From Bacteroidales bacterium (GTDB lineage Bacteria > Bacteroidota > Bacteroidia > Bacteroidales > UBA932): 36,684 nt of DNA. The notes below the pieces were generated by a model. That model was not told where the DNA came from and did not search any database. It worked only from the letters and a program-made list of their open reading frames with translations. The stretch is taken from contig JAFTGA010000026.1 of assembly GCA_017458145.1 (NCBI GenBank), positions 1 to 36,684 on the forward strand. Direction: 5' to 3'. How positions within the stretch are numbered: position 1 is the first letter of the stretch; each line of letters starts with the position of its first letter. A program made the translations under genes and the position numbers. Shown here piece by piece: positions 1-14,967 of this stretch.

Positions 1-116
1 AAGAAATCAGGCCTCTAATCTCAGAGTACATTGATCGACGCGTTGAGAATCGTAAATTACGAAATCTTCGCGATTCATTATTGCCAGAGCTTATGTTGGG
101 CAATTTAACCTGCTAA
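1..116 (+). CDS. hsdS: Type I restriction specificity subunit HsdS, C-terminal end only (cut by window edge)
   Basis: The frame starting at base 3 is open from the window edge to a TAA at 114-116. It ends LRDSLLPELMLGNLTC. This resembles the C-terminus of the next hsdS gene (IRDSLLPRLMSGELFMNC) and is typical of the last helix of HsdS, the subunit that selects the DNA target of a type I restriction-modification enzyme. The stop codon sits inside a 25-bp repeat that also contains the start codon of the next hsdS copy, 10 bases later. Only about 37 residues are visible, so it cannot be told whether the upstream part is a full gene or another cassette. The hsdM gene is presumably further upstream. 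Confidence 0.75.
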   Translation, partial: EIRPLISEYIDRRVENRKLRNLRDSLLPELMLGNLTC

Positions 117-135
117 ATTCTCATTTATGGAAGAG
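111..135 (+). repeat. Direct repeat A, copy 1 (25 bp) at an hsdS stop/start junction
   Basis: These 25 bases are identical to 1300-1324. In both copies they contain the TAA of the preceding hsdS, a 10-base spacer and the ATG GAA GAG start of the next hsdS. With repeat B they frame the first target-recognition segment of each hsdS copy, which makes them plausible sites for homologous exchange. Confidence 0.9.
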
Positions 136-1305
136 TGGAAAACATATAGATTAGGTGATGTGGTTAATGTCCTCGATTATATGCGGGTGCCCTTGTCTTC
201 AAAGCAAAGGGAATCCCGTAAAGGCCCTTATCCTTATTATGGCGCACAAGGAATTATAGATCATGTCGACAGTTTTCTCTTCGATGGTGAATACCTCCTC
301 ATAGCTGAGGACGGTGAGAATTTGAAGTCCAAGAAGCAAGATATTGCACAAATAGCTAGAGGACGGTATTGGGTTAATAATCATGCCCACATTGTCGAAA
401 GTAATGGTCGTTGTGATATCAGGTACATCTGCTACCTCCTCAATCAGATAGATTTGTCCGGCTATATTACAGGTTCAGCCCAGCCTAAACTTAACCAAGC
501 AAATCTTCTTGCAATTGAACTACGGCTACCTAGCGTAGAAGTACAGAAAAAAGTATCTGACGTTTTGTCAACATTTGATAACAAAATCGCCATTAACAAT
601 CGCATAAATCATAATTTAGAGGAGCAGGCACGGGCTCTGTATAAGTCTTGGTTTGTTGATTTTGAGCCGTTTAAGGGAGGAAATTTCATGGACTCATAAT
701 TGGGTTTGATTCCGAAAGGCTGGCGAGTTGGAACACTCTCAGAATTGGGTGATATTGTGGCTGGAGGGACCCCTTCTAAAAAAAAGCCAGAGTATTACAC
801 GAATAACGGAATATCTTGGTTGACTCCTAAGGATTTATCCGTCAAATGTAATAAGTTTACTGCCAGGGGCGAGATTGATATCACAGAGGACGGATACAAG
901 AATAGTAGCACCAAGTTAATGCCGCGAGGTTCGGTTCTGTTTAGTTCACGTGCCCCCATTGGCTATATCAGTATAGCGAAGGGAGATATTTGCACCAACC
1001 AGGGTTTTAAGTCAGTTGTTCCTACGTATGCAGGAACTGCCTATCTTTACTATTGGCTGTGTGAGAATACGGAAGCTATAGAAGCTCAGGCGTCTGGTTC
1101 TACATTCAAGGAGGCTTCTGGTTCCTTGATGAGGTCCTTCCCTGCTCTCGTTCCTGAAAAGAGTGTAATAGATTCCTTTGAGAAAGAACTTTCCCCTATT
1201 CTTAATGAACAAGAGATTTTAGAGGAGGAAATCAACCATGCAGAACAGATCCGTGACTCTCTATTGCCACGATTGATGTCTGGAGAGCTTTTTATGAATT
1301 GCTAA
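127..1305 (+). pseudogene. hsdS: Full-length HsdS specificity subunit split by an in-frame TAA at 697-699
   Basis: Positions 127-699 (190 residues) and 700-1305 (201 residues) are in the same frame and together form one HsdS with two target-recognition domains. TRD1 covers roughly residues 1-150 and is followed by a conserved helix (NNRINHNLEEQARALYKSWF). TRD2 begins with IPKGWRVGTLSELGDI and ends with EQIRDSLLPRLMSGEL. At the centre the sequence reads MDS-stop-LGLIPKGW, where related HsdS proteins have SELG. A single G-to-T change (GAA to TAA) would explain the stop. A gggagg sequence lies 8 bases before an ATG at 688 and 20 bases before a TTG at 700, so the second half might be made separately by reinitiation. 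Split HsdS halves can be functional in other systems, so pseudogene is the conservative label. HsdS would bind DNA together with HsdM and HsdR. Confidence 0.8.
595..618 (+). repeat. Direct repeat B, copy 1 (24 bp) in the hsdS central helix
   Basis: These 24 bases match 1763-1786 exactly and encode NNRINHNL, the start of the conserved spacer helix after TRD1. Beyond the repeat the two hsdS copies diverge completely. This makes it a natural right-hand crossover point for a TRD1 swap. Confidence 0.9.
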
Positions 1306-1324
1306 ATTCTCATTTATGGAAGAG
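1300..1324 (+). repeat. Direct repeat A, copy 2 (25 bp)
   Basis: Identical to 111-135. It spans the stop codon of the interrupted hsdS (TAA 1303-1305) and the start codon of the half-length hsdS cassette (ATG 1316), with the same 10-base spacer as copy 1. Confidence 0.9.
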
Positions 1325-1861
1325 ATGAAGAAATACATTCTTGGAGATGTTTGCTCTAGATTGAGCAGCGGAAAAGGCATCTCTTCGGAAGAGATTTTTG
1401 CTAGTGGACCGTTTCCGGTCATTGGCGGGAACGGTATTCGTGGCTATTCCTTGAAAAGTAATTTCTCTGGAGAATGTGGAGTGATCGGACGTCAGGGAGC
1501 ATATTGCGGTAATGTGCGTTTCTTCTCTGGCGCAGCATATATGACCGAACATGCGGTGGTTGTTGTCGGCAACGAAAAAGCCGATACAAGGTATCTTACA
1601 TACTTACTCTCGACTATGCATTTGGGCAATTTGTCTGCACAATCTGCCCAGCCTGGTCTTTCAGTTAAGACGCTTGCTAAGCAAAAAATAATGCTACCTT
1701 CTCTGGCAGAGCAGAGGAGAAGATCATCTATACTCGCAGTGTTAGAGGATAAAATTGCCCTCAACAATCGCATAAATCATAATTTACCCGTTAATTGGCG
1801 TAAAGCTGTTCTTTGTATTACGCTTAATATTAGTTACTTGAATAATCGCTTCACGGCATAA
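1316..1861 (+). CDS. Half-length HsdS with a single target-recognition domain (possible silent donor cassette)
   Basis: The 181-residue product starts MEEMKKYILGDV, aligning with MEEWKTYRLGDV of the preceding hsdS. It keeps the HsdS TRD layout, with a central SGPFPVIGGNGIRGY stretch, SAQPGLS, and LAVLEDKIALNNRINHNL at residues ~140-157. The variable middle differs from TRD1 of the neighbour, so it would read a different DNA half-site. After NHNL the sequence (PVNWRKAV to the stop) no longer resembles HsdS. In the -1 frame a degraded LA-stop-SCSLY can be read, which weakly resembles the expected helix (QARALYK). The gene is therefore probably a 3'-truncated copy, kept either as a donor or as a half-subunit. 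It is followed 13 bases later by the DUF262 gene. Confidence 0.7.
   Translation: MEEMKKYILGDVCSRLSSGKGISSEEIFASGPFPVIGGNGIRGYSLKSNFSGECGVIGRQGAYCGNVRFFSGAAYMTEHAVVVVGNEKADTRYLTYLLSTMHLGNLSAQSAQPGLSVKTLAKQKIMLPSLAEQRRRSSILAVLEDKIALNNRINHNLPVNWRKAVLCITLNISYLNNRFTA
1763..1786 (+). repeat. Direct repeat B, copy 2 (24 bp)
   Basis: Identical to 595-618 and encodes the same NNRINHNL. HsdS homology stops right after it, so the homologous cassette ends at this repeat. Confidence 0.9.
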
Positions 1862-1874
1862 TCAAATAGATACT

Positions 1875-3950
1875 ATGGAACCAGGAAAAGAAAGTATTTA
1901 TGACTTGTTGAATGGAAACACTCAGTACATTGTTCCCGTATATCAGCGCAAATATAGCTGGCTGAAAGATAAGCAGTGTGAACGGCTGTGGAATGATATC
2001 GTTTCCATGGAGAAAACCGGGAAGCGCCAGCATTTCGTTGGTTCTATCGTCAACATAGCGGAGACTCATACTCCGATGGGAATCCAGAAATACCTGGTCA
2101 TTGACGGCCAGCAGCGCATGACAACTCTCACCATTCTGATGATTGCTTTGCGTGATTATCTGATAGACCATCCGTCTGAGGATGTTGATCCAGACAATCT
2201 CACTTCAATGCTGCTGAAGAACGTGACGCAGAAGGGTGAGAATCGGTATAAAATGATTCTTACAGACACTGATAAGGATATCCTTATCAAACTGGTTGAG
2301 AGTGCGCCCATCCCCGAAGACGAGGATTCCACTATCTACATCAATTATCTGTACTTCCGTGAAAAGATAGAGAACGCTCCCATTACGCCTTACCAGATAT
2401 ATGAATCCATAGCCAAGCTGCAGATTGTAAGCATTACCCTCAAGCGCGAAGACGGCGATGATCCCCAACTGATATTCGAAAGCCTCAACTCTACGGGTAT
2501 GGATTTGTCGCAGTCAGACCTTATCCGTAACTTCCTTTTGATGGGCCTTTCTAATGATGAACAGGTTGATGTGTACAACAACTATTGGAAGCCGGTAGAG
2601 GAGTCTTTCCCGGCCGAGAAACGTAACGAGGCAATGGATACCTTCTTCCGTCATTACTTGATGATGAAGAGCATGCAATTTGTTAAGGAAGAGGATGTTT
2701 ATGAAGCTTACAAGAAGTATCAGAATAACTCCGAATTTAGCAATGCCAAGGAATTCGCGGAGGATATCTTTAATTTCGGAAAATGCTACACGGAGATGTT
2801 CTATGCATCTTCTCCATATTCGGAATTGAATGTCGTCTTCTCCGACATTTCTAAGCTGAAGATGGACGTTCAGTTCCCGTTCCTGATGTTTGTCTACAAT
2901 GACTTCAAGAATGGCAAGCTCTCGCAGGATGATTTCAAATGCATTCTCCGCATGACAGAGGCCTATATCGTCCGCCGTGCCATTTGTGAGATTCCTACCA
3001 ACTCCTTGAACAAGACCTTCATCACGATGAAGCGCTCAATCAACTATTCAGACTATCTGAATTCCTTGAAGATGGCCTTCATCAAGCTGGATTCCTATAA
3101 AGAATTCCCGGACGACGCTAAATTCAAGGCCGACTTCTTGGAGAAGAACGTGTACAAGATGCGTATAGCCAATTATCTCCTGGTCAAGCTGGAGAATCAT
3201 GATAACAAGGAACCTATTCCTTTCGAAGGGTTCACCATTGAGCATATCATGCCGCAGAACAAGGACTTAAATCCTGAATGGCGCGCAGCTTTGGGTGAGA
3301 ACTGGGAAGAAATTCATAATAGCTATCTCCATCGGATTGGTAATCTAACGCTCACGAAATACAATACCGAGATGAGCGACAAGCCCTTCTCTGAGAAGCT
3401 GAGCGTATTCCAGGAAAGCGCCACCCACATTCTCAACAAGAGCGTCATCAATCAGAGCACCTGGAACCAGCAGACAATGGATGACCGAGCTGAGATTCTG
3501 ATTGGATATGCGCTCAAAGTTTGGCAGTATCCTGAGGTTTCCGATGAGGTGCGCGCCAAATACAATGAGGAACCAGCGGAGGATTCCAAATCAAAATACT
3601 CGCTGGAATCTTACGAATTTTACAATAACGATGCTCTTACCCGTATGTTCTTTGATAAGCTTAATGAGGCTATCCTTGGACTGCACCCGGGCATCAAGAG
3701 AGAATTCAAGAAATTGTATGTCGCCTACAAGTTGAAGACCAATGTTGTCGATGTGATCTTGCAGCGCGCACGCTTACGCCTGACCGTCAATTTGGAATTC
3801 GACGAGGTTAATGACCCTTCAGGAATTTGCCGGGATGTGACCAATCTCGGCCGCTTGGGCAACGGCGACGTAGAGATTGGCTTTGATTCCCTCGGGAAAA
3901 TGGATGCCGCAATCGATATTATCAAGCAATCACTTGCAAAACAGCTATAA
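1875..3950 (+). CDS. GmrSD-like DUF262/DUF1524 nuclease (type IV restriction family)
   Basis: This 691-residue protein has the ParB-like DUF262 signature at its N-terminus: YIVPVYQRKYSW at residues 18-29, FVGSIV at 54-59 and DGQQR at 77-81. Near the C-terminus is a DUF1524 His-Me-finger nuclease motif: IEHIMPQ with His457, then HRIGNLTL starting at His486. The last ~110 residues (YNNDALTRMFFDKLNEAI onward) resemble a DUF5655-type tail, but this is less certain. Family knowledge: GmrSD/BrxU-type proteins use nucleotide hydrolysis by DUF262 and DUF1524 cleavage to attack modified phage DNA, whereas many homologues sit inside type I loci with unknown roles. The stop is followed after 2 bases by the hsdR start, so the two are almost certainly co-transcribed. 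Function as an accessory phage-restriction enzyme is inferred. Confidence 0.85.
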   Translation: MEPGKESIYDLLNGNTQYIVPVYQRKYSWLKDKQCERLWNDIVSMEKTGKRQHFVGSIVNIAETHTPMGIQKYLVIDGQQRMTTLTILMIALRDYLIDHPSEDVDPDNLTSMLLKNVTQKGENRYKMILTDTDKDILIKLVESAPIPEDEDSTIYINYLYFREKIENAPITPYQIYESIAKLQIVSITLKREDGDDPQLIFESLNSTGMDLSQSDLIRNFLLMGLSNDEQVDVYNNYWKPVEESFPAEKRNEAMDTFFRHYLMMKSMQFVKEEDVYEAYKKYQNNSEFSNAKEFAEDIFNFGKCYTEMFYASSPYSELNVVFSDISKLKMDVQFPFLMFVYNDFKNGKLSQDDFKCILRMTEAYIVRRAICEIPTNSLNKTFITMKRSINYSDYLNSLKMAFIKLDSYKEFPDDAKFKADFLEKNVYKMRIANYLLVKLENHDNKEPIPFEGFTIEHIMPQNKDLNPEWRAALGENWEEIHNSYLHRIGNLTLTKYNTEMSDKPFSEKLSVFQESATHILNKSVINQSTWNQQTMDDRAEILIGYALKVWQYPEVSDEVRAKYNEEPAEDSKSKYSLESYEFYNNDALTRMFFDKLNEAILGLHPGIKREFKKLYVAYKLKTNVVDVILQRARLRLTVNLEFDEVNDPSGICRDVTNLGRLGNGDVEIGFDSLGKMDAAIDIIKQSLAKQL

Positions 3951-3952
3951 TT

Positions 3953-6900
3953 ATGTTTGCTGAGTCTAACTACGAGAACGCACTCATTGAGTTGCTGGAC
4001 AATCTGGGCTATGACCACATATACGGCCCGGAAATAGAACGGGATTACCGTGTCCCTTTCTATGAGGCGCAGCTCGCTCATAGCCTGACTTTGGTCAATC
4101 CCGCAAAACCGACCGTTGCTATCAATGAGGCAATCCGCCGCGTCAAAGATATAGATACGGGAACGCTGGTACAGAAGAATGAAAAGTTCATGGACTTCCT
4201 TCAGAACGGCGTTGAGGTCTCCTATGATATCAAAGGTGAAACCGTCCATGATATCATCTACCTCATCGACTACGTTCATCCGGATCGTAATACTTTCCAG
4301 GCTATCAATCAGTGGACTTTCATAGAAAAGTCTGAGAAGCGGGCGGATATCATGATATTCGTGAATGGTTTGCCACTCGTTCTCATTGAACTCAAGTCGC
4401 CGGCTCGGGAAGAGACGGATGCCTCCGCTGCCTACCGTCAGATTCGCAACTACCTCCAGGAGATTCCGTCCCTTTTCATATATAACGTATTCTGCGTAAT
4501 GAGTGATATGACGCTCTCCAAAGCTGGCACCATCACTAGCAAGGAGGACCGCTTCATGGAGTGGAAGACGAAAGACGGGATGGTAGAGACAAAAGATTTC
4601 GTGGACTACGACACCTTTTTTGTCGGCATGTTCAAGCGGGACCGTCTTCTGGATCTCATTAAGAACTTCACCTGCTTCAGCGTCGATGAATCCGGTTCGG
4701 CAAAGATTCTTGCAGGCTATCATCAGTATTTTGCTGTAAAGAAAGCCATAGACCGCACTGTTCGAGCAACAGGAAGCGATGGCAAGATTGGTGTTTTCTG
4801 GCATACCCAGGGAAGCGGCAAGTCCCTCTCTATGGTATTCTATGCTCATCTGATTCAGACGGTCCTCAACAAGCCCACCATTGTGGTGATAACGGACCGC
4901 AATGACTTGGATGACCAACTCTATACACAGTTCTCCAAATGCGAACGTTTCTTGCGCCAGCAGCCTGTCCAGGCTTCCAGCCGTGAGAACCTTCGCGAGC
5001 TTTTGGTCGGACGCGAAGCCAACGGAATCATCTTCACCACTATGCAGAAGTTTGAGGAATCCAACGAGCCTCTTTCAGAACGTCGTAACATTGTGGTGAT
5101 GGCAGATGAAGCACACCGTGGCCATTATGGATTTGAGGAAAAGGTAGATGCCCGGGGCCGCATCAGTGTCGGTACGGCCCGCATTATCCACGATTCTTTG
5201 CCAAATGCTTCTTTCATAGGCTTTACCGGCACCCCCATTTCTCTGAAAGATCGCGACACCCAGGAGGTTTTCGGTGACTACATCGATATTTATGATATGA
5301 CGCAGTCAGTTAAGGATGGCGCCACCTGTCCGGTTTTTTATGAATCTCGCGTCGTTAACCTAAAACTGGATGAAGAAACCATCAAGAGAATTGACGCCGA
5401 ATACGAGAAACTCTCTGAAGAAGGCGCTACAGCTCAGCAAATTGAAGAGAGCATGCATGAGATGTCCCATCTCGAAGAGATCCTGGGCGCACCTGAAACC
5501 GTCGACTCTCTGGTAAAGGATATTCTTAAGCACTACGAAGAAAACCGCCAATTCGAACTCACTGGAAAGGCTATGATTGTTGCCTTCTCCCGACCCATTG
5601 CAATCCGAATCTACAGGCGCATTCTTGAATTGCGTCCCGACTGGACGGAAAAGGTCAAGGTTGTAGTTACGGGCTCCAACAACGATCCTGAAGAGTGGCA
5701 CGATATCATCGGCAACAAGCAGTACAAGAAAGAGTTGGCGAAAAAGTTCAAGGACGATAACGACCCGATGAAGATTGCCATTGTTGTGGATATGTGGCTC
5801 ACCGGCTTCGATGTCCCTTCACTGGCCACCATGTACGTGTACAAGCCCATGTCTGGCCACAACCTGATGCAGGCAATTGCCCGCGTGAACCGCGTGTTCT
5901 CCGGTAAGGCAGGCGGTCTGGTCGTGGACTATATCGGTATCGCCAAAGCCTTAAAAGAGGCTATGCGCGACTATACCAAGCAGGATCAGGAAAACTACGG
6001 CAATACCGATATTAAGGACACGGCACTCATTAAGTTCAAAGAGAAGTTGGAAATATGCCGGGATTGTTTCCATGGCTTTGATTACTCCAAGTTCAAGGAC
6101 GGCAGCGATTCTGATCGTGCTGCCATCATTCAGGGCGGGGTAAACTTTATGTTGGATCCATGGATGGAGGAAACAATGAATCGCTTCCTGAAAGAGGCTT
6201 TATTGCTTAAGAATGCTGTAAGCCTCTGCAGGAGCCTTCTTGATGAAGACCAGCGCTTTGAATCTGCTTTCATTGAGATTGTCCGCACTTCCATCAACAG
6301 AATCAAGAATGTTAAGGCAAAGGTTTCCAAGAAGGAGATCAATGAGCGGATTGGAGAACTCCTCAAACAGAGTATTAAGAGCGAAGGCGTTATCAATCTT
6401 TTCTCTAACGTCAAGGCCGAATTCTCTCTATTTGATCCCGCATTCCTGGAGGAAATCTCCAAGATGAAGGAGAAACACATTGCCATTGAGTTGCTTAAAA
6501 AGCTGCTCAAAGAGCGCGTTCACCTCTATGAGCGTACCAATCTGGTACAGGCGCAGAAGTTCTCAGACCTTATCAATATGGCTCTCTCCAACTATCTGAA
6601 AGGCCTTCTCACCAACGAGGAGGTCATCAAGGAATTGCTGGATCTGGCACACGAAATCGCCCAAAGCGAGCAGATGGCAGATAGTCTGGGCCTCAACTCC
6701 GAGGAAAAAGCCTTCTATGATGCTCTAACCAAGCCACAGGCGGTGAAGGACTTTTATTCAAATGAGGAACTGGTGAACCTCACCAAGGAGCTGACCGAGG
6801 AACTTCGGAAGAACCGTACTATCGACTGGCAAAAGAAAGAGTCTGCACGTGCAGGCATGCGTTCCAAGGTTAAACGTCTTTTGAAGAAATACCACTATCC

Positions 6901-6994
6901 GCCTGAAGAAGAGCAGTCTGCCCTTGAAACCGTCATCCGCCAGTGCGAGCAGTGGGCGGATGTCGACACCACGGATTACGCTCTTTATGAGTAG
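3953..6994 (+). CDS. hsdR: Type I restriction endonuclease subunit R (HsdR)
   Basis: This 1013-residue protein has the full HsdR layout. The N-terminal PD-(D/E)xK nuclease has Asp132 (ADIMIF) and Glu146-x-Lys148 (IELKS). The SF2 translocase has Walker A TQGSGKS with Lys290, DEAH at 385-388 (ADEAHRGHYG) and motif III GFTGTP from residue 423. The helicase C-lobe follows (VDMWLTGFDVPS, QAIARVNRVF). The helical C-terminus would contact HsdM/HsdS. The size is normal for the family, and all key residues are intact. With HsdM and HsdS it would translocate and cut unmodified DNA. Because its specificity gene is interrupted, its current activity depends on another hsdS copy or on split-subunit function. 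Confidence 0.95.
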   Translation: MFAESNYENALIELLDNLGYDHIYGPEIERDYRVPFYEAQLAHSLTLVNPAKPTVAINEAIRRVKDIDTGTLVQKNEKFMDFLQNGVEVSYDIKGETVHDIIYLIDYVHPDRNTFQAINQWTFIEKSEKRADIMIFVNGLPLVLIELKSPAREETDASAAYRQIRNYLQEIPSLFIYNVFCVMSDMTLSKAGTITSKEDRFMEWKTKDGMVETKDFVDYDTFFVGMFKRDRLLDLIKNFTCFSVDESGSAKILAGYHQYFAVKKAIDRTVRATGSDGKIGVFWHTQGSGKSLSMVFYAHLIQTVLNKPTIVVITDRNDLDDQLYTQFSKCERFLRQQPVQASSRENLRELLVGREANGIIFTTMQKFEESNEPLSERRNIVVMADEAHRGHYGFEEKVDARGRISVGTARIIHDSLPNASFIGFTGTPISLKDRDTQEVFGDYIDIYDMTQSVKDGATCPVFYESRVVNLKLDEETIKRIDAEYEKLSEEGATAQQIEESMHEMSHLEEILGAPETVDSLVKDILKHYEENRQFELTGKAMIVAFSRPIAIRIYRRILELRPDWTEKVKVVVTGSNNDPEEWHDIIGNKQYKKELAKKFKDDNDPMKIAIVVDMWLTGFDVPSLATMYVYKPMSGHNLMQAIARVNRVFSGKAGGLVVDYIGIAKALKEAMRDYTKQDQENYGNTDIKDTALIKFKEKLEICRDCFHGFDYSKFKDGSDSDRAAIIQGGVNFMLDPWMEETMNRFLKEALLLKNAVSLCRSLLDEDQRFESAFIEIVRTSINRIKNVKAKVSKKEINERIGELLKQSIKSEGVINLFSNVKAEFSLFDPAFLEEISKMKEKHIAIELLKKLLKERVHLYERTNLVQAQKFSDLINMALSNYLKGLLTNEEVIKELLDLAHEIAQSEQMADSLGLNSEEKAFYDALTKPQAVKDFYSNEELVNLTKELTEELRKNRTIDWQKKESARAGMRSKVKRLLKKYHYPPEEEQSALETVIRQCEQWADVDTTDYALYE

Positions 6995-7098
6995 TTCATA
7001 ATTTCTAAACGCGTATTTATAGCAATTTGATTTTGGAGATTCAAAGAAACATACAGGACCCCAACTTAAAATTTCATCCCCTAAAAAGCATGTAGCAT

Positions 7099-7293
7099 AT
7101 GGCACAGACATCCTACCCCTGCGAGAACTGTAAATTCCGCGCGCACTACGAGAAAAACCCGAAATCAGCCCTCGGCCGCTTCTGGCGCTGGCACATCAAT
7201 TTCTGCCCCGGCTGGAAGAACTACTTCACCCATCAGGATGAAGAGACCCGGGCGGCCCTTCGGGAGAAATATAATTTCAAAAAGTACCAGTAA
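7099..7293 (+). CDS. Small Cys-containing hypothetical protein
   Basis: This is a 64-residue basic protein with Cys8-x2-Cys11 near the N-terminus, followed by an aromatic segment RFWRWH (residues 27-32) and Cys36 in FCPGW. The Cys and His arrangement could bind a metal or form disulfides, but I do not recognise a named family. It has no signal peptide or membrane segment. Its TAA overlaps the ATG of the next gene by one base (TAATG), so the two are translationally coupled. This suggests a shared redox or metal-related role (inference only). Confidence 0.7.
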   Translation: MAQTSYPCENCKFRAHYEKNPKSALGRFWRWHINFCPGWKNYFTHQDEETRAALREKYNFKKYQ

Positions 7294-7673
7294 TGGAAAC
7301 CCGCAAAGACCTCGCAGCCGGAAAGAAGCGCTGCAACTCCCACAACTGCGCCCAGTCCGTGGTATGTACGTATTGCGACCTGGTGGGGCTGGATGAGCAG
7401 ACGGCCCTGGACATTGCCGGGGCCTACGGCACTGGCATGGGCAATATGGAAGGGACTTGCGGTGCCCTGGTGGGCGCCGGGATGATCGTCGGCCTGGCTA
7501 CGAAAGACCGGAACCTGTCCCGTGCCCGGATGAAGGAAATGATGGTCAAGTTCCAGCAGCGCAACGGCGCTACGCAGTGCAAACTGCTGAAAGGTGTCGG
7601 CACGGGCCAGCCGCTCCGTGATTGCCCGGATTGCGTGGCGGACGCCGCGGAATTCCTGGAAGAATACCTGTAG
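7293..7673 (+). CDS. C_GCAxxG_C_C-type redox protein
   Basis: The 126-residue protein has eight cysteines in a spacing typical of the C_GCAxxG_C_C family: Cys14, Cys19, Cys25, Cys28, Cys56 within GTCGALVGAG, Cys96, and Cys111-x2-Cys114 near the end. The family is described as putative redox-active, possibly binding an iron-sulfur or other metal centre. The exact reaction is not established. The central motif reads CGALVG rather than CGCAxxG, a small variation. No signal peptide is seen, so it is probably cytoplasmic. It overlaps the preceding small Cys protein by one base and is likely co-expressed with it. Confidence 0.8.
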   Translation: METRKDLAAGKKRCNSHNCAQSVVCTYCDLVGLDEQTALDIAGAYGTGMGNMEGTCGALVGAGMIVGLATKDRNLSRARMKEMMVKFQQRNGATQCKLLKGVGTGQPLRDCPDCVADAAEFLEEYL

Positions 7674-7896
7674 TTCTATGGAAAACCTGCCAAGTCCTCA
7701 TCTTATTCTTGCATATTTGCGGTTAATAATGTATTATGCTTCAAAGATCAGTTCCTTGAGGGCAGCATAGCTTTCCGTGCCGGTCTGGAGAAGACAGGCA
7801 GAAACAGGAATGGCCCTCCCTTTTGGTGGAGCGTATGCCAGAAGACATTGACATCGCTGACAGACCCGAAATGCTGGAAGAAAAAGAAAGGTTTTA

Positions 7897-10351: not shown

Positions 10352-11557
10352 ATGACTCGTCCGCCGATGGAACAGGCCCCGGAAAAGAAGAGATACATCC
10401 TCCTGGACGCGCTGAGAGGCTTTGCTCTCCTGGGCATCGTCCTGGCCAATTACCCGGAGTTCTCGCTGTGGTCGTTCTCGGACCCGGCAGGCTGGTCCGG
10501 GGCTGACCGGGTGACCCGGGCCATCCAGACCTTCCTCATCGACGGGAAGTTCTATACCCTCTTCTCGCTCCTGTTCGGAATGGGCTTCAGCATCCAGCTG
10601 TCCCACGCAAACGGACGGCTCGGGACCTTCCTGCGGAGAATGGCGGTGCTCTTCGTGATCGGCCTGCTGCACCTGTGCCTGCTCTGGAGCGGGGACATCC
10701 TGATGCTCTATGCCCTCTGCGGGCTGCTGCTGCCGCTGTTCCGAAATCTGCCCACACGGGGCGTGCTCGCCGCGGCCGGAGGCCTGCTGCTGCTTCCGGT
10801 CCTGCTGGACGCCCTTTTCGGCACCCGCCCGGCCGACCCGCTGGAAGCGGAGCAGTGGCGCATCTGCGCCCGTTACGGCATCACGGAGGCCAATTTCGGG
10901 ACCTGGCTGTCGGACGCCCACAGTTACCGCGAAGTCCTGCGCTTCCTCCATCAGGGCGCAGTGGAGCGGATGTGGGAATTCGTCATCGGGCATCGCTTTT
11001 TCAAGGTGACGGGCCTGTTCCTCATCGGCTTCGCCGCGGGCCGGGAACGCATCTATGCCGACATCCCGGCATTACGGGGCCTGCTGAAGAAGGTGCTGGG
11101 GTGGGGGCTCGCCCTCGGAGTGCCGCTGAGCGTGCTCTATACCTGGAGCTCGATGGCCGGACATCCCTGGGGGCGGGTGGTCCACGACCTGACCTACCTG
11201 AGCGTCTACCTGATGGGATTTGCCTATGCGGCAGGATTCTGCCTGCTGTTTGACCGGCATTCCGAAGGGAAGGGCTGGTGGCTGCTTTCCTATCCCGGGC
11301 GGATGGCCTGCACGAACTACCTCGGCCAGTCGGTGATCGGCATCTTCCTGTTCTACGGGGTCGGCCTGGGGCTCGGCAATCAGGTGGGCCTGCCGGGCAC
11401 CGAACTGATCGCCCTGGGCGTGTACGGCTTCCAGCTTGCTTTCAGCGCCCTCTGGTTGAAGCATTTTCGGTACGGCCCGGTGGAATGGGGCTGGCGAATG
11501 CTGACTTATGGAAAAATACTCAGGGTCCGACTGACCGAAATGAATGGACGCGGGTAG
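10352..11557 (+). CDS. DUF418 family multi-pass membrane protein
   Basis: The start is placed at ATG 10352 (MTRPPMEQAP), just after the upstream stop, giving 401 residues; an open frame extends further upstream, but those codons overlap the previous gene. The N-terminus has LDALRGFALLGIVLAN, typical of the DUF418/YeiB group. Several hydrophobic helices follow. The C-terminal DUF418 signature is clear: GRMACTNYLGQSVIG, FYGVGLGLG and FRYGPVEWGWRMLTYG. The protein sits in the inner membrane. Its function in bacteria is not established; a transport role is often suggested. It faces asd tail to tail. Confidence 0.85.
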   Translation: MTRPPMEQAPEKKRYILLDALRGFALLGIVLANYPEFSLWSFSDPAGWSGADRVTRAIQTFLIDGKFYTLFSLLFGMGFSIQLSHANGRLGTFLRRMAVLFVIGLLHLCLLWSGDILMLYALCGLLLPLFRNLPTRGVLAAAGGLLLLPVLLDALFGTRPADPLEAEQWRICARYGITEANFGTWLSDAHSYREVLRFLHQGAVERMWEFVIGHRFFKVTGLFLIGFAAGRERIYADIPALRGLLKKVLGWGLALGVPLSVLYTWSSMAGHPWGRVVHDLTYLSVYLMGFAYAAGFCLLFDRHSEGKGWWLLSYPGRMACTNYLGQSVIGIFLFYGVGLGLGNQVGLPGTELIALGVYGFQLAFSALWLKHFRYGPVEWGWRMLTYGKILRVRLTEMNGRG

Positions 11558-11661
11558 GCGAGGACTACAACGTCCAGGCCTTCGTGTCGGAGCGCTATCC
11601 GGGGACGCATCTGTGAGCAGTTGGACGGACTGCGCTGAAATGTCTCAGGAGCAGCAGGATG

Positions 11662-11688
11662 CCTGGTCAGCTTTTCTGGCTGACCAGG
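11662..11688. terminator. Hairpin at the 3' end of asd, possible bidirectional terminator
   Basis: CCTGGTCAGC (11662-11671) and GCTGACCAGG (11679-11688) form a perfect 10-bp stem with a 7-base loop. It overlaps the asd stop codon and lies between convergent genes. There is no clear U-tract on either side, so the terminator role is tentative. Confidence 0.4.
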
Positions 11689-12671
11689 TATTCTGCAATC
11701 TGGACCGCGTTGAGTGCAGCGCCCTTCTTGATCTGGTCTCCGGAGAGCCAGAGGGTGATGCCGTTGTCGTTCGCGAGGTCCTTGCGCACACGGCCCACAT
11801 AGACGTCGTCCTTGCCTCCGGTGAAGAGCGGCATCGGGTAGGTCTGCGTGGCGGGGTCGTCCTGCAGGGTGACGCCCGGCGCGGCGGCCAGCGCGGCCTG
11901 CACCTGCTCCACGCTGAGCGGCTGCTCAGTCTCGATCCACACGGCCTCGGAGTGGGAGCGCAGCGAGGAGATGCGCACGCACATCGCGCTGCAGCGCACG
12001 TCGGAGTGGAGAATCTTGCGCGTCTCGTTGAACATCTTCATTTCCTCCTTGGTATAGCCGTTGTCCTGGAAGACGTCGATCTGCGGGATGACGTTGTAGG
12101 CCAGCTGGTAGGCGAACTTGTTGACCGTGACGGGCTTGCCCTCGACGATCTCCTGGTATTGCTGCTGCAGTTCGGCCATCGCCTGGGCGCCCGCGCCGGA
12201 GGCGGACTGGTAGCTCGCCACGTGGATGCGGGTGATGTGGGAGAGGGCCTCGATGGGCTTGAGCACCACGACCATCATGATGGTGGTGCAGTTGGGGTTG
12301 GCGATGATGCCGCGCGGGCGCACGAGGGCGTCGGCGGCATTGCACTCCGGTACCACGAGGGGCACGTCGGCGTCCATCCGGAAGGCGCTGGAGTTGTCGA
12401 TCATCACGGTGCCGTGCTTGGTGATGGTCCCGGCAAATTCCTTGGAAGTGCCGGCTCCGGCGGAGACAAAGGCGTAGTCCACGCCCTTGAAGTCGTCGTT
12501 GTGCTGGAGCAGCTTGACTTCATATTCCTTCCCGCGGAAGGTGTATTTGCTCCCGGCGCTGCGGCTGGAGCCGAAAAGCACCAGTTCATCCAGGGGGAAA
12601 TTCCGTTCGTCGAGGACCCGCAGGAACTCCTGTCCCACGGCTCCGCTGACACCTACGATTGCTACTTTCAT
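11667..12671 (-). CDS. asd: Aspartate-semialdehyde dehydrogenase
   Basis: This 334-residue enzyme reduces aspartyl phosphate to aspartate semialdehyde with NADPH, the branch compound for lysine, threonine and methionine. The start [14 protein letters not shown] carries the NADP-binding glycine motif, and the codons upstream of it in the open frame are not family-like. The catalytic Cys128 is in [15 protein letters not shown] follows, and the catalytic His240 is in LRSHSEAV. The length is normal. It is the last gene of the minus-strand set thrA, thrB, thrC, asd, separated from thrC by 61 bases that hold a palindromic element. Its stop overlaps a hairpin. Confidence 0.95.
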
Positions 12672-12689
12672 ATTCTGCTTTTTATTGAG

Positions 12690-12710
12690 ATTCCGGGGCA
12701 AGCCCGGAAT
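12690..12710. repeat. REP-like palindrome between thrC and asd
   Basis: ATTCCGGG (12690-12697) and CCCGGAAT (12703-12710) are a perfect 8-bp inverted repeat with loop GCAAG, followed by gacgg. This resembles the dispersed intergenic palindromes found in many genomes, whose spurious translation reads GQARNDG. There is only one copy in this window. Confidence 0.5.
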
Positions 12711-12732
12711 GACGGTTAAACTTGTGATATTG

Positions 12733-14037
12733 CTATAGTTGCGACAGATAATTCCGGAAGGAAGCGTAGTCGCGCCCCATCGGGACGCTTTGCTTGCTAC
12801 CCTGCAGGAAGGCGGCGAGCCGGGCGGGGATCTCGATGCCGACGCCGGCGGCGCTCTCGACCGTCTCCTGGAACTTGGCCGGGTGGGCCGTCTCGCAGAT
12901 CACGGCGGACTCGCTGGGGGCGAGGTGGTGGTACACGGCCCGGAAGGCACAGGCGCCGTGCGGGTCGAGCAGGTAGCCATAGCGGCGCAGGCAGTCCGAG
13001 ATGGTGGCGCGGATCTGCAGGTCGCTCACCGTGGCGCCGGAGATGTCGGCGCACAGGGCGGCATGGTCGCCGCCGTAGAGGTCCAGGATGCGGGCGAAGT
13101 TGCTCGGGGCGCCCACGTCCATCGCATTGGCGAGGGTGGGTATGCTCGCGCGGGGCTTGTACTGCCCGGTCTGCAGGTATTCATAGAAGACGTCGTTGGC
13201 GTTGTTGGCCGCGACGAAGCGCTTCACCGGCAGGCCCATCCGTTTCGCGATGAGGGCGGCGCACAGGTTGCCGAAATTGCCGCTGGGCACGCACACGACC
13301 AGCTGCTCCGCGAGCCCGAGCCGCTTCATCTGCGCATAGGCGTGGAAGTAATAGAACGACTGCGGCAGCAGGCGCGCGACGTTGATGCTGTTGGCGGAGG
13401 TGAGGCGCAGGCGCCCGGTCAGCTCCGCATCCATGAAGGCGTTCTTGACGAGGGCCTGGCAGTCGTCGAAGGTGCCGTCCACTTCAAGGGCGGTGATGTT
13501 CTGCCCGAGGGTGGTGACCTGCGCCTCCTGCGTGGGGCTGACCTTGCCGGAAGGGTAGAGGACGTGCACGCGGACGCCCTCCACGCCCAGGAAGCCGTTC
13601 GCCACGGCGCTGCCCGTGTCGCCGGAGGTGGCCACGAGCACGTGGATGGTGCGGCGGTCGGCGGAATTGCGGGTGAAATGGCCCAGCAGGCGCGCCATGA
13701 AGCGGGCGCCGACGTCTTTGAAGGCGAGGGTGGGGCCGTGGAAGAGTTCCAGCGCGCCGATGCTGCGCGTCACGCTGACCACGGGGCAGTCGAACGCGAG
13801 CGTCTCCTCCACGATGCGGTGCAGCTCCGGGGCGGGGATGTCCCCGCCGAAGAGGGCGTCCGCCACGGTGCAGGCGATCTCGGGGAACGTGAGCGTCTGG
13901 ATGTCGGCGAAGAAAGACTCCGGCAGCGCGGGGATGCGCTCCGGCATATAGAGCCCCCGGTCCTCGGCCAGTCCGCGGACCACGGCTTTTTCAAGACTGG
14001 CGCGGGGCGCCTGCCCGTTGGTGCTGTAGTATTCCAT
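12733..14037 (-). CDS. thrC: Threonine synthase
   Basis: The 434-residue PLP enzyme converts O-phosphohomoserine to threonine, the last step of the branch. It begins MEYYSTNG, as is typical of the family. The PLP-binding Lys107 is in [13 protein letters not shown], and the phosphate-binding loop region has ATSGDTGSA. The PLP-contacting segment VPSGNFGNL and HPAKFQE near the C-terminus are also present. The length is close to that of E. coli ThrC (428). It lies 3 bases downstream of thrB on the minus strand, so it is part of the same transcript. Confidence 0.95.
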
Positions 14038-14040
14038 GCG

Positions 14041-14967
14041 CTATGCGATAAGGCGGGCGCCCTTGTTGGACACCTTGACCACGTAGGTTTCGAATTGGAT
14101 GCCGTGCTGGCGGAAATGCCGTTCCATGACCGTGGCGGCCTTTTGGGCCAGGTCGGCGCGGCTGGCCAGGGCGAAGACCGACGGGCCGGAGCCGCTGATG
14201 TTCATCGCCAGCGCACCGGCGATATGGAGTTTCTCCCGCAGGTCGTCGAAGCCCGGGATGAACTGCTTGCGGTAGGGCTCCGCCACGGCGTCGCGCATCG
14301 CACGGCCCACCAGCTCGATGTTGCCGGTGCACAGGCCCGCGACGAGCCCGCCCACGTTGCCCCACTGGGTGATGGCGGTGTGCATCGGGATCTCCTTGGG
14401 GAGGATGCTGCGCGCCTCCTTGGTGGAGACCATCAGGTGCGGGTGGATGACGGGGCAGTAGAGGTTGCCCGGGACGGGGAGCTTGATGATGTCCAGCGGG
14501 TCGTAGCCGCGGATGAGCGTGATGCCGCCCATCACGGCGGGGGCCGCGTTGTCGGCGTGGTAGCCGCCGCTGGCCAGGTTCTCGCCTTCCATCGCGCAGA
14601 CGACTACGTCCTCCTCGCCGAGCGGGGCGCCGAAGAGTTCGTTGATGCCGAAGGCGGCCGCGGCGCTGGAAGCGGCGCTGGAGCCGATGCCCGAGCCGGG
14701 GTAGATCTTCTTCAGGACGCGCACTTCCACGCGTCCGTCGTGGCCGGTCATCGCGAAGAACTTGCGCAGGACCGGCGTGATGACGTTGTCCTCGATGTCC
14801 TCGGGCAGCGGGACCTCGGTCTCGTTGACGATGGTGATGCCGGAGCCCTGCTCGTCGAGAGTCATCTCCAGCACGTCCCCGACCTCGTCCAGGGCCATGC
14901 CCATGATGTCGAAGCCGCAGCCCAGGTTGGCGATGGACGCCGGAGCGAATACTTTGATCTTCTTCAT
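14041..14967 (-). CDS. thrB: Homoserine kinase
   Basis: The 308-residue GHMP-family kinase phosphorylates homoserine with ATP. The N-terminal APASIANLGCGFD and the ATP-binding loop YPGSGIGSSAASSA (89-102) are diagnostic, and the third GHMP motif is seen as NISGSGPSVFAL near the C-terminus. The length matches E. coli ThrB (310). It lies 4 bases downstream of thrA and 3 bases upstream of thrC, in the order thrABC. Confidence 0.95.
   Translation of the reverse strand: MKKIKVFAPASIANLGCGFDIMGMALDEVGDVLEMTLDEQGSGITIVNETEVPLPEDIEDNVITPVLRKFFAMTGHDGRVEVRVLKKIYPGSGIGSSAASSAAAAFGINELFGAPLGEEDVVVCAMEGENLASGGYHADNAAPAVMGGITLIRGYDPLDIIKLPVPGNLYCPVIHPHLMVSTKEARSILPKEIPMHTAITQWGNVGGLVAGLCTGNIELVGRAMRDAVAEPYRKQFIPGFDDLREKLHIAGALAMNISGSGPSVFALASRADLAQKAATVMERHFRQHGIQFETYVVKVSNKGARLIA

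Follow-up and report, generated by a model that had tools for sequence, protein, structure and literature searches.

A putative array of exchangeable hsdS cassettes with direct recombination sites in a type I restriction–modification locus of Bacteroidales

Shuffling of the specificity gene hsdS of type I restriction–modification systems has been described in several bacteria. In the tvr locus of Streptococcus pneumoniae (SpnIV) hsdS segments are excised and reintegrated by TvrR, as set out in the available part of the report (PMC6265443). The available parts of further papers place shufflon BB of Bacteroides fragilis on inverted repeats (PMC3090145), have PsrA acting on inverted repeats at the S. 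pneumoniae cod locus (PMC7096588), and present the hsdS rearrangement of Prevotella intermedia as an inversion (PMC5608340); inversion is likewise mentioned in PMC11868660 and PMC5903667, as far as these sources could be accessed. According to its accessible text, a REBASE survey of type I systems able to switch looked for inverted repeats (PMC7394358) and would thus pass over arrays with direct sites. In a literature search covering titles and the beginnings of abstracts, we recognised no published direct-site hsdS array in Bacteroidales.

For the locus described here we suggest, with a probability of roughly 0.8, an hsdS array of swappable cassettes with direct sites, in which a recombinase excises units and reinserts them in a new order. 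The type I restriction–modification operon would comprise hsdM and a tyrosine recombinase gene on the left, the cassette array, and hsdR on the right. The array would read site2-TRD2-site1-TRD1-site2-TRD2-site1-TRD1-site2, beginning with a headless TRD2 half and closing with a tailless TRD1 half. Most likely the recombinase pairs sites of the same kind, either two copies of site 1 or two of site 2; units would then be excised as circles and be inserted again at a further copy of the site. The outcome would be new in-frame pairs of TRD1 and TRD2 or no intact hsdS at all, and the bacterium would thereby alter which DNA gets marked and cut.

The window, that is the whole stretch of 36,684 nucleotides analysed here, contains a 25-nt repeat at 111–135 and 1300–1324 and a 24-nt repeat at 595–618 and 1763–1786, both exact and direct as first described in a sequence-only reading of this DNA. 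Within positions 1–1900 the longest exact direct repeat is this one of 25 nt, and the maximum was 16 nt among 200 order-1 Markov sequences. All features of positions 1–6994 named in the following lie on the plus strand. By sequence reading, positions 1–116 are the 3′ end of another, upstream hsdS truncated by the contig end; they correspond to the last part of a TRD2 cassette. The first copy of site 1 (111–135) has its core AAATTCTCATTT at 115–126; the TAA at 114–116 closes the upstream hsdS and the ATG at 127–129 opens the next one. The latter gene, hsdS B (127–1305), had been taken as the main hsdS. It is present with both repeats and yet not intact, as an in-frame TAA at 697–699 interrupts it and leaves two frames, of 190 and 201 aa. 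Its TRD1 half (127–699), closed by this stop codon, and the frame remaining past it, with TRD2 (700–1305), match Methylase_S. Site 2 lies mid-gene (595–618, core AAATCATAATTT at 606–617) and starts the TRD2 cassette of hsdS B (606–1315), which over 710/710 bp is 82.1% identical to the headless TRD2 cassette of locus L056 (7954–8663). The second copy of site 1 (1300–1324) has its core at 1304–1315, flanked by TAA (1303–1305) and ATG (1316–1318). It is followed by the tailless hsdS half with TRD1 (1316–1861), which is the right end of the array by its Pfam match and by its equal position in relatives, and which contains the terminal site 2 (1763–1786, core 1774–1785). Both TRD1 stretches match Methylase_S in Pfam. 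We confirm the spare TRD1 cassette between the same two repeats, which corresponds to the tailless half of our proposal. We also confirm that homology to HsdS does not extend past the second repeat of the half gene, ending at 1786; the right flank of the terminal site is unrelated to HsdS.

To the right follow a GmrSD-type (DUF262) gene with a DUF5655 end (1875–3950, Pfam) and hsdR of the type I system (3953–6994, profile match to TIGR00348). In this genome and in L056 the GmrSD-type gene adjoins the array on its right; between array and hsdR, 14 other loci carry an Abi_C-like gene, a grouping made by eye with one of these genes scanned against Pfam. Beside the restriction island, at 11667–34451, lies a long run of genes whose translations suggest, on inspection by eye, enzymes for the biosynthesis of amino acids: two aspartate kinases, threonine synthase, ilvD, ilvB, ilvC, leuA/leuCD/leuB-like genes, ilvE, and diaminopimelate decarboxylase.

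The window is the complete contig C33 of its assembly and its left end cuts through the locus; whether a recombinase gene lies upstream of base 1 could therefore not be judged from the window, in which the sequence-only reading had seen none. Of the four Methylase_S matches of this genome, contig C4 has one and the window has the other three. On the minus strand, C4 carries hsdM (4635–3130, PF02384/PF12161), an open frame of 338 aa for a tyrosine recombinase (3114–2098, PF00589 and PF13495), a headless hsdS half with TRD2 running to 1385 (PF01420, Methylase_S), a RhuM-family cargo gene (1317–265, Pfam), a copy of repeat 1 found by sequence match (256–226), and, read from the sequence after this copy, the start of a further hsdS that runs off the contig. 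One copy of site 1, located before the RhuM gene, is decayed. With these genes and the repeat copy on C4, the view that no recombinase is present fails, and a pure RecA route, which had been proposed in its place, becomes unlikely. Thus hsdM, hsdS, and hsdR of one type I restriction–modification system are all present in one assembly, hsdM and hsdR being on two contigs. As the same order is found in relatives, C4 probably precedes C33 in the genome; the joining piece was not found. In the recombinase R196, K223, H286, R289, H312, and Y321, which we take to be the catalytic residues, are invariant among 9 homologs. Its nearest solved chains are XerA and XerC-like proteins. Plain XerC/D identity was rejected, as the protein scores under the XerC and XerD cut-offs; it is above the cut-off of NF040815 (243.9 vs 220).

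Both repeats hold a palindromic core, TAAAT-N4-ATTTA, with the spacers TCTC at site 1 and CATA at site 2 of the window. In the window and 20 kb of C4 the strict core occurs five times, every time at an hsdS junction. One hsdS ends with its stop codon in site 1 and the next usually starts there, whereas site 2 is found mid-gene. In the 43 loci described below together with the window and C4, a T precedes the core and makes TAA in 60/60 strict copies of site 1, and ATG follows directly in 53 of the 60. Site 2 has a single codon phase in all 83 strict copies that lie inside detected hsdS frames of the 43 loci (four further copies are outside frames). Exchange between like sites would thus keep the frame, as had been expected for an exchange of TRD1. 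The strict spacers were chosen from the observed sites, and other AAAT-N4-ATTT matches in TRD and cargo genes were treated as chance. Counted in this way, the arrays of the 43 loci, the window, and C4 contain 150 direct and no inverted strict sites; one reversed match is located outside any array. Of the tyrosine recombinase and the inverted cassettes that the sequence-only reading had suggested looking for, the former is found on C4, and no strict site in an array is inverted.

Could the repeats simply be conserved coding sequence of tandem paralogous hsdS genes? Site 2 does fall into the middle part of HsdS, which is conserved. Site 1 is coding only in part, spanning a stop and a start codon, and in the half genes the homology ends exactly at site 2; in addition, the units swapped between species and the array-less and end-site data presented below contradict plain paralogy, which we regard as very improbable.

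The spacers are constant inside a locus and vary among loci, being TCTC or TCCC at site 1 and CATA, GATA, GGCA, or CGCA at site 2. Both site types are seen in 28/40 Bacteroidia loci (30 entries including the window and C4), many loci being cut by contig ends. In most Bacteroidia loci the reversed site 1, ATAAATGAGAATTTAG, and site 2, ATAAAT(C/G)ATAATTTAG, share their arms and differ in the spacer. It is the reversed and not the direct site 1 that aligns with site 2, and the spacers of both sites are compatible in 0/30 entries. Tyrosine recombinases require a matching overlap sequence. Thus, judged from the spacers, inversion between site 1 and site 2 should be off in Bacteroidia and exchange of like with like should be on.

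For the comparison with relatives we searched genome sets with one genome per species. At E ≤ 1e-40 the recombinase is found in 5/101 genomes of a genus sample, one hit having only 39% identity, and at E ≤ 1e-120 in 8/393 genomes of an order sample, both counts including this genome. A recombinase scan of named genomes gave the 43 loci, of which 40 are from Bacteroidia by record title and three from Clostridia. The recombinase gene follows hsdM in 40/40 Bacteroidia loci, all of which were found through the recombinase. As far as the contigs reach, the order in Bacteroidia is hsdM, recombinase, headless half, full genes, tailless half, and hsdR; this full order is seen on single contigs of relatives, for example, L044, L045, and L046, and in named records. 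HsdS was detected in 33/40 Bacteroidia loci and is co-oriented in all of them; no reversed HsdS was detected across the 40 loci. In five of the remaining seven the contig ends first, and two (L084, L086) are array-less, their genomes holding other Methylase_S matches (one with L084, three with L086). There are exceptions to the common order: L056 has an array without a full gene, L059 has a DUF3644 gene in place of the left site 2 and the headless half, L064 has no strict site up to its contig end, and L074 has imperfect end sites. In L090 of Bacteroides cellulosilyticus there is one strict site and an HsdS frame of 837 aa; this array (11009–14592) is possibly fused or decayed.

The site-1 pattern was found in 16/400 genomes, and a backwards control pattern matched once. 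Twelve of the genomes with the site-1 pattern were looked at, with an array in eight and none seen in four (L048–L051). One genome, G286, has a second array end with hsdR (L053, contig C47, 22–3722) with 73% identity to L044 over 2865 bp; it either contains two such loci or is a mixed assembly. Among viral contigs there is one distant recombinase (29%), and the site-2 pattern occurs in 10 stretches and the site-1 pattern in one, L112. This sequence, filed as viral (IMGVR_UViG_2836880742_000002), shows at 1–1939 a portion of such an array, with a TRD2 end, a DUF1016-like gene, site 1, and a TRD1 start. A plasmid of the archaeon Methanosphaera (L115) codes at 6845–7843 for a recombinase with 66% identity to the present enzyme; the annotation lists no hsdS up to 7 kb away from it. 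A related recombinase is also found in Fusobacterium (L117), in a record that carries no annotation.

Is the array in this genome a fossil that was formerly shuffled and is now fixed? The in-frame stop codon in hsdS B and the decayed copy of site 1 before the RhuM gene would fit such a history. Nevertheless, the recombinase frame is open over its 338 aa, the cores are perfect in 4/4 copies of the window and in one copy on C4, and the assembly breaks inside the array in this genome as it does in relatives. We therefore consider a fixed array quite improbable and suggest that shuffling may still take place in this genome. Of 17 array-side contig ends four without a preceding strict site were dropped, and 9 of the remaining 13 lie 0–140 bp past a core, compared with 16.2% of the array positions (binomial P 2.9e-5). 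Contig ends near cores could be a sign of mixed junctions, but the test is suggestive only, as the limit of 0–140 bp was set after the distances had been seen.

Traces of exchange come from the comparison of related genomes, which the sequence-only reading had recommended. The array of Phocaeicola faecium Sa1YUN3 (L085) is composed as A2-B1-C2-D1 and that of Bacteroides sp. ET71 (L089) as C2-D1-A2-E1, where the numerals 2 and 1 mark the alternating TRD2 and TRD1 cassettes. One whole unit, C2 with its Fic cargo and D1, is shared over 2370 bp with 99.6% identity, and most of another, A2 with its BRO-Fic cargo, over 2008 bp with 99.1%. Both blocks stand in swapped order with the junction at the site-2 cores, and the flanks are 93.7 and 89.2% identical. 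The intact hsdS consists of B1 and C2 in L085 and of D1 and A2 in L089. At third codon positions the shared unit pieces agree to 96.6–100%, compared with 93.7% for HsdM, 88.9% for the recombinase, 80.5% for the Abi_C gene, and 72.3% for HsdR; the units thus appear to have been shared more recently than their flanks. Related cassettes of full length are also found at differing positions in L073/L074 (94.7%), L056/L059 (89.4%), L061/L065 (85.2%), and, as described above, L056 and the window. Most of a TRD1 is common to L057 and L060 and to L080 and L082, at different places. In L079 and L081 (the latter from Bacteroides acidifaciens DSM 15896) the flanks are 97.4–98.0% identical, yet the single cassette match is a cargo gene and not a TRD.

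Two Prevotella loci lack the array. In L084 (Prevotella micans) the left flank resembles those of relatives and is followed by a site-2 core, behind which the right flank agrees with that of L082 in 59/60 bp; this is what a crossover of the left with the right end site would be expected to leave. In L086 (P. ihumii) the left flank is identical over 60 bp to L076, L082, and L087 and is followed by the core and by hsdR. Both sites could represent loss of the array or the ancestral state.

A rival proposal is that the repeats recombine by RecA-type homologous exchange or gene conversion, as the sole or as a second route. In 19 arrays passing a completeness filter, the left and right end sites share only 12–19 contiguous bp. 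This is too short for ordinary RecA exchange, and loss of the array by end-to-end exchange would have just this stretch available. At internal copies of site 2 the homology is longer than the core itself, with cross-matches of 78 and 171 bp (90% identity) between L085 and L089, and thus internal exchanges could also go via RecA. Moreover, the TRD1 segments B1 and E1 (L085 13067–13612, L089 15420–15958) are unrelated genes behind the same BRO-Fic cargo. They have only their last 77 bp in common, and the break is right behind the stop codon of the cargo gene where there is no strict site, which points to another exchange route or to an unrecognised site. Similar breaks at the cargo edge are found in L082/L087, which share cargo and not a TRD1, and in L080/L082. 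Some exchange may thus occur by means other than the recombinase; in the pneumococcus, too, shuffling partly persists without the recombinase, according to the available part of PMC6265443. On the other side stand a dedicated recombinase gene next to hsdM throughout the Bacteroidia loci, even if these were found by it, and spacers that co-vary inside the loci. RecA as the route is accordingly doubtful, and we rate it as quite unlikely.

We return to exchange of cassettes by the recombinase. Against it speak the stop codon in hsdS B, the decayed site 1 on C4, the missing piece between C4 and C33, the breaks at cargo edges, the limited share of loci (28/40) with both site types, and L090. The same enzyme might also act by unequal exchange at the sites between sister chromosomes or with incoming DNA, without free circles. 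The end products would equal those of the circle route, and the third-codon agreement between L085 and L089 points to exchange between genomes. However, excised circles were demonstrated in the closest studied system, as stated in the available part of PMC6265443. We regard unequal exchange without circles as unlikely and suggest that the units probably move as circles.

Some units carry genes that separate site 1 from TRD2 or from TRD1. By eye, these are a Fic-type gene of ∼355 aa in eight loci, a BRO-Fic gene of 297 aa that starts at the site-1 ATG in eight loci, YhcG/DUF1016 in four, and others singly; 10 cargo or neighbouring proteins were run against Pfam. The cargo in this genome is RhuM, and Fic/DOC-type cargo is found only in relatives. 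Taken together, these features might be explained by a wider scheme, which we put forward tentatively and at somewhat worse than even odds. Bacteroidales would have a two-address hsdS system in which both sites derive from one inverted pair and the spacers have diverged, so that inversion is shut off and only like recombines with like. The units would be mobile between species and acquire, next to site 1, genes of the Fic, BRO-Fic, YhcG-type nuclease, or RhuM kinds; the array in its entirety would be gained and lost at a single empty site located between recombinase and hsdR, like a specificity-swapping integron.

Related loci of Firmicutes, on Lactococcus pJM2A, Enterococcus faecium pW142, and in Lachnospiraceae GAM79 and Ligilactobacillus salivarius, have recombinases 59–67% identical to this one and AAAT-N4-ATTT cores mid-gene and at the gene end. 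In contrast to the 0/30 Bacteroidia entries, mid-gene and gene-end spacers are reverse complements in 4/4 of these loci (L113, L114, L116, L095; CATC/GATG, ACTA/TAGT, GATT/AATC) and could thus pair as inverted sites. Two Clostridia loci (L093 8071–9488, L094 10917–12496) contain reversed hsdS pieces and inverted AAAT-GATT-ATTT sites along with a recombinase of 60% identity; hence the recombinase family may also serve inversion. If our reading is true, Bacteroidales of gut and rumen gain a second route, besides inversion, to alter DNA methylation and phage defence, and the spacer pattern would offer a test of how a single family of recombinases could act in inversion or in the exchange of cassettes, four bases apart. 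That units of two species are nearly identical and their flanks more diverged suggests that the recognition domains themselves travel between genomes.

How does the proposed mechanism compare with known ones? With the inverting hsdS shufflons BB and cod, as far as the available parts of their descriptions go, the locus has in common the switching of HsdS specificity and a tyrosine recombinase gene in the locus; it differs in that 0/150 strict array sites are inverted within their type. Like an integron, it consists of successive units, some of them with cargo genes, that would be moved by a tyrosine recombinase. However, in a test for an IntI-type integrase this recombinase scores only 65.1 bits with TIGR02249, far below the integron integrase cut-off of 265. 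The closest match in mechanism appears to be the pneumococcal tvr locus. By the available part of the tvr report (PMC6265443), both are type I loci with TRD half-gene segments between hsdM and hsdR (here across two contigs), with two kinds of direct repeats, mid-gene and tail-end, that share a core (here its arms), with a tyrosine recombinase in the locus, with N- and C-terminal TRDs that hold their places, and with spare half genes. At tvr, however, the recombinase and a phd-doc-like pair (tvrAT) lie among the segments and are carried on the circle, and all cores face one way, as described in the same source. In the 40 Bacteroidia loci the recombinase gene always follows hsdM and lies outside the array, to the left of its first site, this genome has the RhuM gene instead of a tvrAT pair, and site 1 resembles an inverted site 2 with a spacer misfit. 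It is speculation, by analogy, that the Doc-type genes of tvr and the Fic cargo found here might share a role in retaining circles.
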